Part shown: piece after piece, positions 3,798 through 36,022 of the stretch
Layout of the letters: each line of letters opens with the position of its first letter
Position numbering within the stretch: position 1 is the stretch's first letter
Assembly (NCBI GenBank): GCA_021827685.1
Contig: JAKAUM010000011.1
Location: 1-44,440, forward strand
Length of the DNA stretch: 44,440 nt
Direction: 5' to 3'
From: a bacterium
Lineage (GTDB): Bacteria; Patescibacteriota; Minisyncoccia; UBA6257; 2-01-FULL-56-20
Notes under the pieces: model-generated
The model's database searches: none
The model's input: the letters and a program-made list of their open reading frames with translations, nothing else
What the model was told of the DNA's origin: nothing
Position numbers and translations under genes: made by a program

Positions 3798-4949
3798 GTG
3801 CGTATCATCGCCCACGTCGACCTTGACGCTTTCTTCGCCTCTATAGAAGAGCGCGACAAGCCGCGCCTGCGGGGGCGGCCGATAGTCGTGGGTGCCGATC
3901 CCATGGACGGAAAAGGGAGGGGCGTCGTATCCACCGCCAACTATGCCGCGCGGAAGTACGGCATCCGATCGGCCATGCCCATTTCAAAGGCCTGGCAACT
4001 TTCGGAGGCCGCGCGCAAGCGTGGCGAAAAGCCCGCGGCATTCCTCGACGTGGATATGGAAAAGTACATCGAGGTTTCGGGACGCATTATGACCGTCCTC
4101 AAGCGCCACGTTTCGCACATCTCCCCGCGCGGCAAGGCGATGGTGGAAGCCGCGAGCGTGGATGAGGCGTATCTCGACCTCTCGCCGCTCGGCTCGTACG
4201 GGAAGGCGCGCGAGGCGGCGCAGCAGATCAAAGACGATATAAAGAAGAGCGAGCGCCTCACGGCGTCCGTGGGCGTCGGCTCGAACAAGCTTATTGCGAA
4301 AATCGCATCCGACCGAGAGAAGCCGGACGGGCTCACGGTCGTGCGTCCGGAGGACGCGGAGGCGTTCCTCGCGCCGCTCCCCGTCCGCGTCATCCCGGGC
4401 GTGGGCCCGAAGACGGAGGAGCTCCTCGCGCGGCGGGGCGCGCGCACGGTCGGGGACGCGAAGCGTTTTACGATCGAGGGCCTCCGCGACGAGCTTCGCC
4501 TGGGCAAATGGGGAGCGGACCTTTACGAGAAGCTGCGCGGGCGGGACGAGTCGCCGCTCATGGCCGAGCGGGTCGCGAAGTCCGTCGGGCACGACGTGAC
4601 CTTCGCGCATGACATGCCGATCGCATCCGCCCGGGAACGCAAAGCGCTCACGGACGCATTGGCGCGAATAGCGGGGGAGGTGATAAAGCGGCTCACGGGC
4701 GGCGGGTTCAAATCGTTCCGTTCCGTCTCCATCGTCGTTCGCTTTGCGGGCTTTACGACGAAAACGCGCGCGGTGACGCTCGAGAAGCCGGTGGCCGTTG
4801 AACCGGGCGCGGCTGTCGGACCCGCCGGCGCGCTTCGGACGATAGAGTTCCAATCCCTGAGACTATTCATGCCGTTCCTCGACCGCCGTGAGAACCCGGA
4901 ACGCAAGGCGATACGGCTGATCGGCGTCCGCGTTGAACGGCTCGCGTGA
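3798..4949 (+). CDS. dinB: DNA polymerase IV (Y-family translesion polymerase)
   Basis: Protein of 383 aa. It starts with GTG and reads MRIIAHVDLDAFFASIE, giving the first catalytic aspartate and the aromatic steric gate. The second acidic motif SVDEAYLD lies near residue 120. ASVGVGSNKLIAKIAS and the helix-hairpin-helix segment IPGVGPKTEELL follow, then a little-finger domain. No beta-clamp box of the QLxLF type is obvious at the C-terminus, although LRLFMPF about 30 residues from the end could serve. It copies past damaged bases with low fidelity. Its position between fusA and tuf is unusual. No LexA-type operator was recognised. Confidence 0.95.
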   Translation: MRIIAHVDLDAFFASIEERDKPRLRGRPIVVGADPMDGKGRGVVSTANYAARKYGIRSAMPISKAWQLSEAARKRGEKPAAFLDVDMEKYIEVSGRIMTVLKRHVSHISPRGKAMVEAASVDEAYLDLSPLGSYGKAREAAQQIKDDIKKSERLTASVGVGSNKLIAKIASDREKPDGLTVVRPEDAEAFLAPLPVRVIPGVGPKTEELLARRGARTVGDAKRFTIEGLRDELRLGKWGADLYEKLRGRDESPLMAERVAKSVGHDVTFAHDMPIASARERKALTDALARIAGEVIKRLTGGGFKSFRSVSIVVRFAGFTTKTRAVTLEKPVAVEPGAAVGPAGALRTIEFQSLRLFMPFLDRRENPERKAIRLIGVRVERLA

Positions 4950-5001
4950 CCATGCGGAGGGCATCCGGCTCGTCCGCGCAATTCACGGTATGTTCGCGGG
5001 T

Positions 5002-5031
5002 TTGACAGAAAACCTCGATCTAGTCTAGAAT
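5002..5031 (+). promoter_or_regulatory. Promoter of the tuf-rpsJ unit
   Basis: A perfect -35 TTGACA (5002-5007), an 18-base spacer and a -10 TAGAAT (5026-5031). The predicted start at about 5038 gives tuf a 5' leader of about 136 nt, in contrast to the very short leaders elsewhere in the window. Confidence 0.8.
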
Positions 5032-26098: not shown

Positions 26099-26169
26099 GG
26101 GGGCATCGTTCAATGGCAGGACGGCGGTCTCCAAAACCGCCAACGTGGGTTCGATTCCTACTGCCCCCG
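26099..26169 (+). tRNA. tRNA-Trp (anticodon CCA)
   Basis: Complete 71-nt cloverleaf: acceptor GGGGGCA/TGCCCCC, D stem GTTC/GGAC, anticodon loop CTCCAAA on a GCGGT/ACCGC stem, a TTCGATT T loop and discriminator G, the usual base for tRNA-Trp. CCA is not encoded. It reads UGG only, consistent with UGA being a stop in this genome. An AT-rich ThyA-family gene follows directly. Confidence 0.96.
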
Positions 26170-26246
26170 CGAGTAGGGCGATAAAAAACTCCTTATGATA
26201 TGAGGGCGGTTTTACGTCCGGAGGTTCTCACTCGGGATCTTATAAC

Positions 26247-26283: not shown

Positions 26284-27171
26284 ATGAACGATTTTGACAG
26301 GCAATATCTGTCGCTTTTAAAACGTGTATTATCTCGCGGCGAGAGAAGAATAACTCGATCTGGGGCTGGGACGATAAGTGTTCACGGAGAGATGATTAAG
26401 CACGATCTCTCGAGGGGATTTCCTTTGACTACCCTGAGGGCAATACCATTCCGGTTGGTGTCAACAGAGCTCGAATGGACATTGAGGGGTAAGACCGACA
26501 AAAATTCGCTACAAGCACTTAATAATCATATTTGGGACAAATTTTGCAATCCGACGCATGTTAAACATCTTAAAAACTATGAAAAGAAATTTGGCAGCGC
26601 TTTCAAAGATAACGATTTAGGTCCCATATACGGATTCCAGTGGCGTCATTTCGGCGCCAGGTATACCGGCCCGAATTCGGATTACAAAGGCCTCGGGTTC
26701 GACCAGATTAAGACCATCATCAAATTGTTGAAGAGTCGGTCGTTCTCTAAAAGAATGGTCATAACGAACTGGAATCCGGCTCAAGTCGAAGAAATGGCGG
26801 TACCTTGCTGCCCTGTTGCGTTCTCGGTCATAAGGCACGGGGACAGGCTGAACCTCTCATTTTTTCAGAGATCGGCCGATGCAGTCATAGGATTGCCATT
26901 CGACTTTGCTTTCTATGCCCTCCTGTTGCACCTTTTCGCTCTAGAGGCCCGCTTGAAGCCTGGCAGTATCGTCGGGTTTTTCAATAATATCGAGATTTTT
27001 GATCAACATATCGCAAACGCCAAGAAGCTGATTCGGCGAACGCCTAAAAGGCTTGCCAGGATGGAGACGAGAGATTTCAAAACCATATTAAAGTGGAAGC
27101 ACGATGACTCGCGGCTCGCGGGGTATAAGCCCAACGATCAATTGAAATTTGAGGTTCATTTCTCAAGTTGA
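26284..27171 (+). CDS. Thymidylate synthase-family protein, possible dCMP (hydroxy)methylase
   Basis: Protein of 295 aa with the ThyA fold throughout: ITRSGAGTISVHG (phosphate arginine), STELEWTLRGKTD, LGPIYGFQWRHFG, MAVPCCPVAF (catalytic Cys at about 176), FQRSADAVIGLPFD, LKPGSIVGFFNN. ThyA has PFN where this has PFD (Asp207). In E. coli ThyA that Asn recognises the uracil ring, and in T4 dCMP hydroxymethylase it is Asp. The His after the catalytic Cys is Pro, and the HxY pair that holds the sugar reads EIF. The substrate may therefore be dCMP rather than dUMP. The start at 26284 is set by alignment; an ATG at 26200 adds non-family residues. Codon and base use are far more AT-rich than the neighbours, a sign of transfer. 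Confidence 0.8.
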   Translation: MNDFDRQYLSLLKRVLSRGERRITRSGAGTISVHGEMIKHDLSRGFPLTTLRAIPFRLVSTELEWTLRGKTDKNSLQALNNHIWDKFCNPTHVKHLKNYEKKFGSAFKDNDLGPIYGFQWRHFGARYTGPNSDYKGLGFDQIKTIIKLLKSRSFSKRMVITNWNPAQVEEMAVPCCPVAFSVIRHGDRLNLSFFQRSADAVIGLPFDFAFYALLLHLFALEARLKPGSIVGFFNNIEIFDQHIANAKKLIRRTPKRLARMETRDFKTILKWKHDDSRLAGYKPNDQLKFEVHFSS

Positions 27172-33879: not shown

Positions 33880-33908
33880 ATTATACCGTGCCACCAAAGA
33901 ATATGCAA
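33880..33908 (-). promoter_or_regulatory. Promoter of the RRM gene
   Basis: On the minus strand TTGCAT (33903-33908), a 17-base spacer and TATAAT (33880-33885). The -10 is near-symmetrical (ATTATA on the other strand) and lies at the start of the divergent MutY-like gene. Confidence 0.75.
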
Positions 33909-34781
33909 GCCGGTTCCGCGGGAGCCGTCAATTCCGCCGAAATCCGCCGATTCAGGTCCGCCGTATGGCGGCATTACCGCCGCCTTGGCCGCCACGGCCT
34001 TCCGTGGCGGCTTACGCGCGACCCGTACCGCATCCTGGTTTCCGAGATCATGCTCCAGCAGACGCAGGTTTCCCGCGTCCTGAAATTCTACCCGAGATTC
34101 ATCGGGGCGTTCCCGGATTTCGGTGCGCTCGCGCGCGCGGAGACGAGGGACGTGCTCCGGGCGTGGCAGGGGATGGGGTATAACCGGCGCGCCTTGGCGC
34201 TCAGGCGACTCGCCGGCATCGTCGCGGCGGAGCACCGTGGCCGCCTTCCGCGCGGCCGTGCGGCGCTTGAGGCCCTGCCCGGGGTCGGTCCCGCGACCGC
34301 AGGCGCCGTCCGCGCGTTCGCCTTCAGCGAGCGGGAAATTTTTATAGAGACGAATATCCGCCGCGCTTTCATGCGATGGTTTTTCCGCGGGCGGCGCAGG
34401 GTAACGGATGCGGAAGTCAGGCGTTATATCGGACGCGCCCTCGATCCGGAAAACCCGCGCGAATGGTACTGGGCGCTCATGGATTACGGCGCATGGCGCG
34501 GGGGAGGCGGCGGACGGACGGAGGGCGGTGCGCGCGGCGGCGCGAATCCGAACCGCCGGAGCGCGCATTACCGAAAACAGCCGCGTTTTGCCGGTTCCGC
34601 CCGCGAACTGCGCGGAAAGATCCTAAAAATCCTTTTGCGGACGGGGCGGGCCTCCGTGCGGGCGCTGGCTAAAGAAACAGGGAAGTCGTATAAAGAGATA
34701 GTGCGCATCGCGGAAGGGCTCGCAAAGGACGGGTTCGTGTCGGGAACAAAAAAGAGGACACACATCGAATTATCTTCATGA
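33903..34781 (+). CDS. MutY-like A/G-specific adenine glycosylase without iron-sulfur cluster
   Basis: HhH-GPD protein of 292 aa. VSEIMLQQTQV holds the MutY glutamate, and the helix-hairpin-helix reads LEALPGVGPATAGAVRAFAF. The position of the catalytic Asp reads FIETNIRRAF, that is Glu. No cysteine occurs anywhere, so the C-x6-C-x2-C-x5-C iron-sulfur site is absent. Its place after MDYGAW is a Gly-rich loop, then PNRRSAHYRKQPRF. Residues after about 230 look like a winged helix (RALAKETGKSYKEIVRIAEGL) in place of the NUDIX-like 8-oxoG reader. An in-frame GTG at 33888 is a possible start. It overlaps the next gene by 4 bases. Confidence 0.8.
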   Translation: MQAGSAGAVNSAEIRRFRSAVWRHYRRLGRHGLPWRLTRDPYRILVSEIMLQQTQVSRVLKFYPRFIGAFPDFGALARAETRDVLRAWQGMGYNRRALALRRLAGIVAAEHRGRLPRGRAALEALPGVGPATAGAVRAFAFSEREIFIETNIRRAFMRWFFRGRRRVTDAEVRRYIGRALDPENPREWYWALMDYGAWRGGGGGRTEGGARGGANPNRRSAHYRKQPRFAGSARELRGKILKILLRTGRASVRALAKETGKSYKEIVRIAEGLAKDGFVSGTKKRTHIELSS

Positions 34782-36022
34782 AAAATATAAAAAGACGGAC
34801 GAAGGCGGTCGGGGCGGCGGTTTTCATCGTCGCGGCAGCGGTTTTCCCCGGCTTTCCTGCGGCGGGATTTCCCGCCGGCGCGGCAGTGCCGGCGCCCGTG
34901 CCCGTGGCGCAGGCCGCTTCCCGCCCGTTTTATTACGCCGTGTGGCTCCCGTTTTGGCGGAGCAAGAGCGGCGCGACGGACGTTTCGCTCCACCTAAACC
35001 GGCTTCATGAAGTAAGCCCGTTTTCATATGCAGTACGCCCCGACGGGACGCTCGTTGACGATTTAAGAATAGGGGACGGGTCGTGGAACCCTTGGTTTTC
35101 CGCCGTCCGCGCCGCGGGCGTAAAAATCATTCCGACGGTCGCATGGCTCGACGGCAATGCCATCAATGCGCTCCTTTCGGACGGCTCCGCGCGGCGGGCG
35201 CTCGAAACCCGGATCGCCGATCTCGTGAAGCAAAACGATTTCAGCGGGATCGACATCGATTTCGAAGGGATGCCGTCGAGCACGAGGAATTATTATTCGC
35301 TTTTTATCTACGGCCTGGCGCTTCGGCTCCATCCCGCGGGCAAGACGCTCGCCTGCACGGTGACGCCGCGCATGCCCGAAAGTTCGATGTACGCATCGAA
35401 CCCCCTTCCTCCGATCGCATATTCCGAAAATTATACCGTCCTCAACCGTTATTGCGACGAGGTGCGGGTGATGGCATACGACCAGGGGCTGATCGATATA
35501 AAACTTGACGCCTCGAAGGGCAACGGCACGCTTTATGCGCCGGTGGCGGATCCTGCGTGGGTTCGGAAGGTGATTCTGGAGACGATCCGGTGGGTGAATC
35601 CGCGCAAGGTGATGCTCGGGATTCCGACGTACGGATATGAATACCAGGTTTCGTGGCGCATGGGTGCGACGACGTACGAGCGCGTGCGCAGTTTCGATTA
35701 CACGGGCGCGATGGAACGGGCGCTCAGCATGGGCATCGTGCCGTACCGGAACAATGCCGGCGAACTTTCGTTCGCTTATTCCTCGAGCACCCATATCACG
35801 GGCGTTCCCAGCGTCCTTACGGGCATTGTGGCGTCCACGTTGCCCGCGGCGCTTGCGGGGAGCGGCCCCGATTCCACCTCGACGACGTTTTTCGTTTCCT
35901 TCAGCGACGCGCAGGCCATAGCCCAGAAGATCGCGCTCGCGAAAGCGTTCGGCCTCCGCGGAGCGATCCTTTTCAAGGCGGACGGCGGGATGGATCCTGC
36001 GACGTGGAACGTCATGCGGTGA
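34778..36022 (+). CDS. Secreted glycoside hydrolase family 18-like protein
   Basis: Protein of 414 aa. A basic N-terminus and hydrophobic, Ala/Gly/Val-rich segment (residues 1 to about 46, ending AQAAS) form a signal peptide. The GH18 barrel shows VKIIPTVAWLDG, the catalytic motif FSGIDIDFEGM with the acid Glu, EVRVMAYDQ and KVMLGIPTYGYEYQV. The pattern resembles YaaH/SleL-type peptidoglycan or chitin hydrolases more than true chitinases. It may trim the cell's own wall or act on a neighbour's. It overlaps the MutY-like gene by 4 bases (ATGA), so they share a transcript. Confidence 0.85.
   Translation: MKNIKRRTKAVGAAVFIVAAAVFPGFPAAGFPAGAAVPAPVPVAQAASRPFYYAVWLPFWRSKSGATDVSLHLNRLHEVSPFSYAVRPDGTLVDDLRIGDGSWNPWFSAVRAAGVKIIPTVAWLDGNAINALLSDGSARRALETRIADLVKQNDFSGIDIDFEGMPSSTRNYYSLFIYGLALRLHPAGKTLACTVTPRMPESSMYASNPLPPIAYSENYTVLNRYCDEVRVMAYDQGLIDIKLDASKGNGTLYAPVADPAWVRKVILETIRWVNPRKVMLGIPTYGYEYQVSWRMGATTYERVRSFDYTGAMERALSMGIVPYRNNAGELSFAYSSSTHITGVPSVLTGIVASTLPAALAGSGPDSTSTTFFVSFSDAQAIAQKIALAKAFGLRGAILFKADGGMDPATWNVMR

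Follow-up and report, generated by a model that had tools for sequence, protein, structure and literature searches.

Within the 44,440-nt stretch of patescibacterial DNA analyzed here (the window), a gene at 26284..27171 on the forward strand (ORF P0001, 295 aa) encodes a variant member of the ThyA superfamily that we predict to be a cytosine-nucleotide C5 methylase. The protein appears to have switched to a cytosine nucleotide, a reading well supported by its combination of Asp177 and Pro147 (E. coli numbering), by an ortholog and by a parallel in Xp12-group phages. Our favored explanation, for which we judge the case about evenly balanced, is that P0001 is a neofunctionalised, probably horizontally acquired thymidylate synthase (TS) paralog that would methylate its substrate to 5-methyl-dCMP or 5-methyl-CMP.

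An intact TS-fold protein with a rebuilt active site

In profile searches P0001 scored 237.4 bits against PF00303 (curated cut-off 24.3), matched thymidylate synthases in NCBIfam, PHROGs and PDB, and exceeded the TIGR03284 cut-off, while scoring far below those of the PRK01827 models. Its AlphaFold model (mean pLDDT 93.7) superimposes on solved thymidylate synthases with a Z of 39.6 and an rmsd of 1.4 A over 279 aligned residues; T4 gp42 and MilA are absent from the 50 rows listed in that comparison, which is uninformative either way. The sole poorly predicted part is the C-terminal end, the folate-closing tail in thymidylate synthase, which in the window protein and its ortholog alike is altered and extended by about two residues. 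The frame is open from an upstream ATG at 26200, and the start of the ortholog falls near 26284.

We compared residues in a 157-row alignment of E. coli ThyA, T4 gp42, and phage and patescibacterial proteins, using E. coli numbering. Beyond its PF00303 score, the protein carries the Cys146, Glu58, Tyr94, Asp169, Arg127 and Arg166 expected of the TS superfamily and retains Trp80 and Ser167. The catalytic nucleophile is Cys176 (E. coli C146; codon 26809..26811, forward strand, as are all codons given here). By contrast, the canonical residues of a dUMP methylase are replaced: His147 by Pro177 (26812..26814), the pyrimidine-reading Asn177 by Asp207 (26902..26904; PMC8670742, PMC5175136), and the His207-x-Tyr209 pair that binds the 3'-OH by Glu237-Ile238-Phe239 (26992..27000). 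Further swaps are Arg126' to Lys156 (26749..26751; Lys133' in the CMP enzyme MilA, PMC5175136), Asp205 to Asn235, Trp83 to Phe87, Lys48 to Arg52 and Leu143 to Val173. A reading of this DNA from sequence alone had already delimited the ORF, recognized the ThyA frame with a Cys at about 176, and pointed to the Asn-to-Asp (PFN to PFD), His-to-Pro and HxY-to-EIF changes; translation, PF00303 and the alignment bear out each of these. Overall, 49 of the 67 columns that are near-invariant in 45 ordinary ThyAs are kept and 18 are changed.

The one ortholog recovered from the genome collection, 64% identical over 294 residues, is encoded in the metagenome-assembled genome of Candidatus Zambryskibacteria RIFOXYC1_FULL_39_10 (locus L025, 4986-5885). 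All of the active-site swaps listed above are identical in this protein, and at 14 of the 18 changed columns it has the same new residue, indicating that the changes in the window protein are not due to chance. The two genes differ at 32, 17 and 65% of first, second and third codon positions, respectively, indicative of purifying selection on the pair; together with the common swaps, this shows that the gene is not decaying. In L025, the ortholog and a gene for a YfbR-like HD 5'-nucleotidase (4376-5005) lie between rpoC and dnaG and overlap at the ortholog's start, which hints at a place for the ortholog in nucleotide or nucleoside metabolism. We rejected the nucleotidase as an obligate partner, as the window genome lacks a homolog.

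P0001 is not the only thymidylate synthase of its cell. The window genome (567 kb in 13 contigs, 90% complete, 59% GC) encodes on contig 9 a canonical ThyA that scores 322 bits, retains Asn177 and HxY and lies close to a dCTP deaminase gene (a Pfam match) and a DHFR-like gene (from reading the translated ORF); a search of the genome for ThyX found none. We therefore rejected the possibility, raised in the sequence-only reading as an argument against a new activity, that P0001 is the sole TS. The contig-9 protein (L001/L004) itself carries an insertion ahead of the Cys (ALPDEAARFPICH), and its phosphate loop reads DAHNA where SRR is usual; several genomes of the family share both traits. A second, divergent TS in which Asn177 and HxY are present is encoded in the L025 genome too. 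In trees built after taking out the diagnostic columns, the window protein and its ortholog form a pair (100/100 support) on a branch of its own; the nearest ordinary ThyAs, those of Patescibacteria and DPANN, make up its sister group and do not enclose it, and the other thymidylate synthases of the two genomes fall on different branches. Neither of the sequence-checkable outcomes that the sequence-only reading had set against its proposal, a sole TS and a place within ordinary ThyA, was seen.

A cytosine signature and its parallel in 5mC phages

T4 gp42, MilA and BcmA owe their cytosine specificity to Asp at position 177 (PMC5175136), and in the MetaGPA study positions 177 and 147 best separated TS homologs on cytosine-modified DNA from others (PMC8670742). 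According to work cited in the latter paper, giving a canonical TS an Asp in place of Asn177 moves its activity from dUMP toward dCMP, yielding 5-methyl-dCMP. The window protein has both features of this signature, Asp at 177 and a non-His residue at 147, and the parallel with T4 and the ThyA substitution that had been proposed from the sequence agree with these papers.

Pro147 is present in 8 rows of the 157-row panel, each time with Asp177; these rows are the window pair and TS-like proteins from phages of the Xp12 group, and Phe83 and Arg48 are also common to the two sets. The group includes AXL1 gp63, which has V-P-C-P and G-L-P-Y-D motifs, as do its relatives in IMG/VR; the Cys-Pro dipeptide is thus found in the window protein, its ortholog, AXL1 gp63 and the relatives of the latter. 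Xp12 DNA is fully 5-methylcytosine (5mC), and the same has been inferred for AXL1 DNA (PMC7653180, PMC9206674). Gp63 of Stenotrophomonas phage AXL1 (L168, 10623-11564) is annotated as a dTMP-forming TS yet has Cys-Pro and Asp177, and judging by these residues it is likely the dCMP methylase behind the phage's inferred 5mC. The best tree places the window pair and the Xp12 group far apart (100/100), so that Pro147/Asp177 would be a convergence; forcing them into one clade gave a borderline p-AU of 0.052, which is not a clear rejection.

Asp177 alone is not diagnostic, since three ThyAs from the same order as the window genome (L011 in G021, L111 in G110 and L125 in G229) carry it in a canonical site with His147 and HxY intact; our claim rests instead on the combination. 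For at least one of the three, that in G021, no other PF00303 protein was found in the genome, and such organisms may make dTMP via 5-methyl-dCMP or may tolerate Asp on dUMP. The ordinary-looking clade to which they belong (VAPCHC, SDxHIY) alternates between PFN (L114, L131) and PFD (L011, L111, L125). For the window genome, we rejected a deaminase route from 5-methyl-dCMP to dTMP, as it contains no PF00383 protein; a PF00383 deaminase does lie near the other TS of the L025 genome.

Product, sugar pocket and competing explanations

In hydroxymethylases of this superfamily, the third position ahead of the Cys is Asp or Glu and the second ahead of the Tyr is Ser or Thr (PMC6400193). This T4-type signature (Asp145/Ser94) is absent from the window protein, which has Val173, a mild change from Leu143, and Pro114/Ile115. 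Both sites are TS-like, from which we infer that the reaction ends in hydride transfer and yields a methyl group. Coupled with Asp177, the loss of His147 and the Xp12-group parallel, the missing signature leads us to read P0001 as a putative C5 methylase of cytosine nucleotides. The sequence-only reading had proposed a pyrimidine other than dUMP under the title of a dCMP hydroxymethylase, with a methylated product as an alternative. Its switch to a cytosine nucleotide is upheld by Asp177/Pro147, the ortholog and the phages; its comparison with hydroxymethylases is not, and 5-methyl-(d)CMP seems the better fit to the residues.

In the mechanism we propose, Cys176 would attack C6 of the pyrimidine while Asp207, in place of Asn177, would hold and protonate the N3/N4 face of cytosine. 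The one-carbon unit would come from 5,10-methylene-tetrahydrofolate, and TS-type hydride transfer would then turn it into a methyl group, so that dihydrofolate would be released along with 5-methyl-dCMP or 5-methyl-CMP. Glu237, Phe239 and Lys156 would rebuild the sugar pocket.

Among the 157 rows, Glu207/Phe209 is confined to two, the window protein and its ortholog, and only in this pair is it combined with Lys126'; Phe209 with His207 appears in 15 rows, mostly Nomurabacteria-type ThyA. The Glu207/Phe209/Lys126' set implies altered sugar recognition. For Glu207/Phe209 we know of no characterised precedent, and these residues could serve a quite different ligand. MilA recognizes the 3'-OH of CMP through Lys133', its counterpart of R126', and enzymes of the MilA/BcmA type pair this Lys with Ala at the S167 position (PMC5175136). 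The window protein has the Lys (Lys156) but retains Ser197 at the second position, where MilA has Ala176, making both dCMP and CMP candidate substrates.

Several other explanations have to be weighed against a cytosine-nucleotide methylase. The sugar pocket itself raises the prospect that the enzyme is active on another pyrimidine ligand, whether one with a different sugar, one from a small-molecule pathway, or imported nucleotides that it would demodify in reverse: the pair-only Glu207/Phe209/Lys126' set falls on residues in contact with the 3'-OH and phosphate, and the 5'-nucleotidase gene overlaps the ortholog. We nevertheless consider this unlikely, given that the nucleotidase has no counterpart in the window genome, that Ser167, which hinders ribose, is kept, and that pathway genes are absent nearby. 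Rather unlikely, too, is a hydroxymethylase resembling T4 gp42 or MilA, in which water would replace hydride in the last step to give 5-hydroxymethyl-dCMP or -CMP. Such an enzyme would account for Asp177 (as in T4 gp42, MilA and BcmA), Lys126' (as in MilA and BcmA) and the loss of Trp83 (as in T4), but the water-activating Asp145 is Val173, Ser94 is Ile115, MilA's second ribose determinant is missing and the tree position is far from T4 gp42.

Replacement of the near-invariant His147, HxY, Arg126 and Asp205, together with the altered folate-closing tail, would suit a TS-fold protein that has lost catalysis and serves in binding or regulation, and the sequence-only reading had left room for an inactive enzyme. 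We find this improbable because the nucleophile, Glu58, Tyr94, Trp80 and Asp169 are retained, the swaps recur identically in the ortholog, and part of the set is also present in phage enzymes. An ordinary dUMP thymidylate synthase that tolerates the changes would explain why the top library matches are thymidylate synthase families and why the TIGR03284 cut-off is passed; it is very improbable in light of the canonical TS already in the cell, the shift toward dCMP attributed to Asn177-to-Asp in the work cited in PMC8670742, and the scores far below PRK01827 cut-offs.

Origin, significance and comparison with known systems

Sampling about 1,450 genomes in all, we found no further members in 244 genomes of the order, in 384 and 380 genomes sampled from the class and the phylum, respectively, or in 397 drawn from the L025 genome's order; 80 loci from the genome collection yielded one member, L025. 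Searches of IMG/VR by protein, by two-member alignment and by two motif patterns returned no member. The contig is chromosomal, encoding ribosomal protein L2, EF-G, ATP synthase and a DnaE-like ORF, and given the IMG/VR scans we rejected a phage or prophage origin. At 46% GC and 54% GC3, the gene departs from its neighbors and the canonical thyA (59-66% GC, 75-79% GC3), and this GC3 of 54% against about 77% indicates that it is probably foreign, that is, probably acquired horizontally. It stands alone between a tRNA-Trp gene immediately upstream (26099..26170, forward strand) and a gene for a SpoU-type rRNA methylase (rlmB), with no attachment-site repeats seen around it. The tRNA-Trp/rlmB synteny is not conserved in the family and is too shuffled to reveal an empty site. 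Within the window, no modification partner genes adjoin the gene, and a defense-system library search gave no match. Elsewhere the window encodes an HhH-GPD base-excision glycosylase with a C-terminal winged helix-turn-helix match (33888-34781) and a glycosyl hydrolase family 18 (chitinase-like) protein (34778-36022), the latter in a 0.57-Mb genome.

C5 methylation of free cytosine nucleotides is known from phage Xp12, and hydroxymethylation from T4 and antibiotic clusters; to our knowledge, no dedicated enzyme forms 5-methyl-(deoxy)CMP in ordinary cells. If our reading is true, the presence of such a dedicated enzyme beside a normal TS in a cell with a genome of only some 0.57 Mb would mean that 5-methylcytosine enters DNA or RNA via the precursor pool or that it belongs to an unknown modified-nucleotide metabolism. 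More tentatively, P0001 may be a chromosomal enzyme of a free cell that makes free 5-methyl-(d)CMP with a new sugar grip (Glu207/Phe209/Lys126') and a Pro147/Asp177 pair independent of the 5mC phages. Because that pair recurs, it could offer a simple way to recognize from sequence the TS relatives specific for cytosine, all of which are now annotated as thymidylate synthase.

Set beside known systems, the window pair has as its nearest non-members the ordinary ThyAs of its Patescibacteria/DPANN sister branch (L026, L028; 43-47% identity), which, unlike the window protein, retain Asn177, His147, His207 and Arg126. T4 gp42 (17% identity) has the TS fold, the Cys nucleophile, Asp at 177 and a non-His residue (Thr) at 147, as in the window protein, but it differs in its Asp145, Ser94 and His216/Tyr218, for which the window protein has Val, Ile and Glu/Phe, and in lacking the TS C-terminal tail that is present in the window protein. 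MilA, the CMP 5-hydroxymethylase of the mildiomycin cluster, and BcmA use Asp186 for cytosine and a Lys133' equivalent to Lys156; MilA differs in having Ala176 for Ser167, in keeping His216/Tyr218, and in its extra C-terminal helical domain and antibiotic gene cluster. The Xp12-group dCMP methylase, as represented by AXL1 gp63 and relatives, which are putative 5mC-forming enzymes, has the TS fold, Cys-Pro, Asp177, Phe83 and Arg48 of the window protein and, like it, lacks the Asp145/Ser94 hydroxymethylase pair. However, the phage proteins are 24% identical to it and retain His207-x-Tyr209 and Arg126, and their genes sit with those for dCMP deaminase, DHFR and a pyrophosphohydrolase, whereas the window gene stands by itself.
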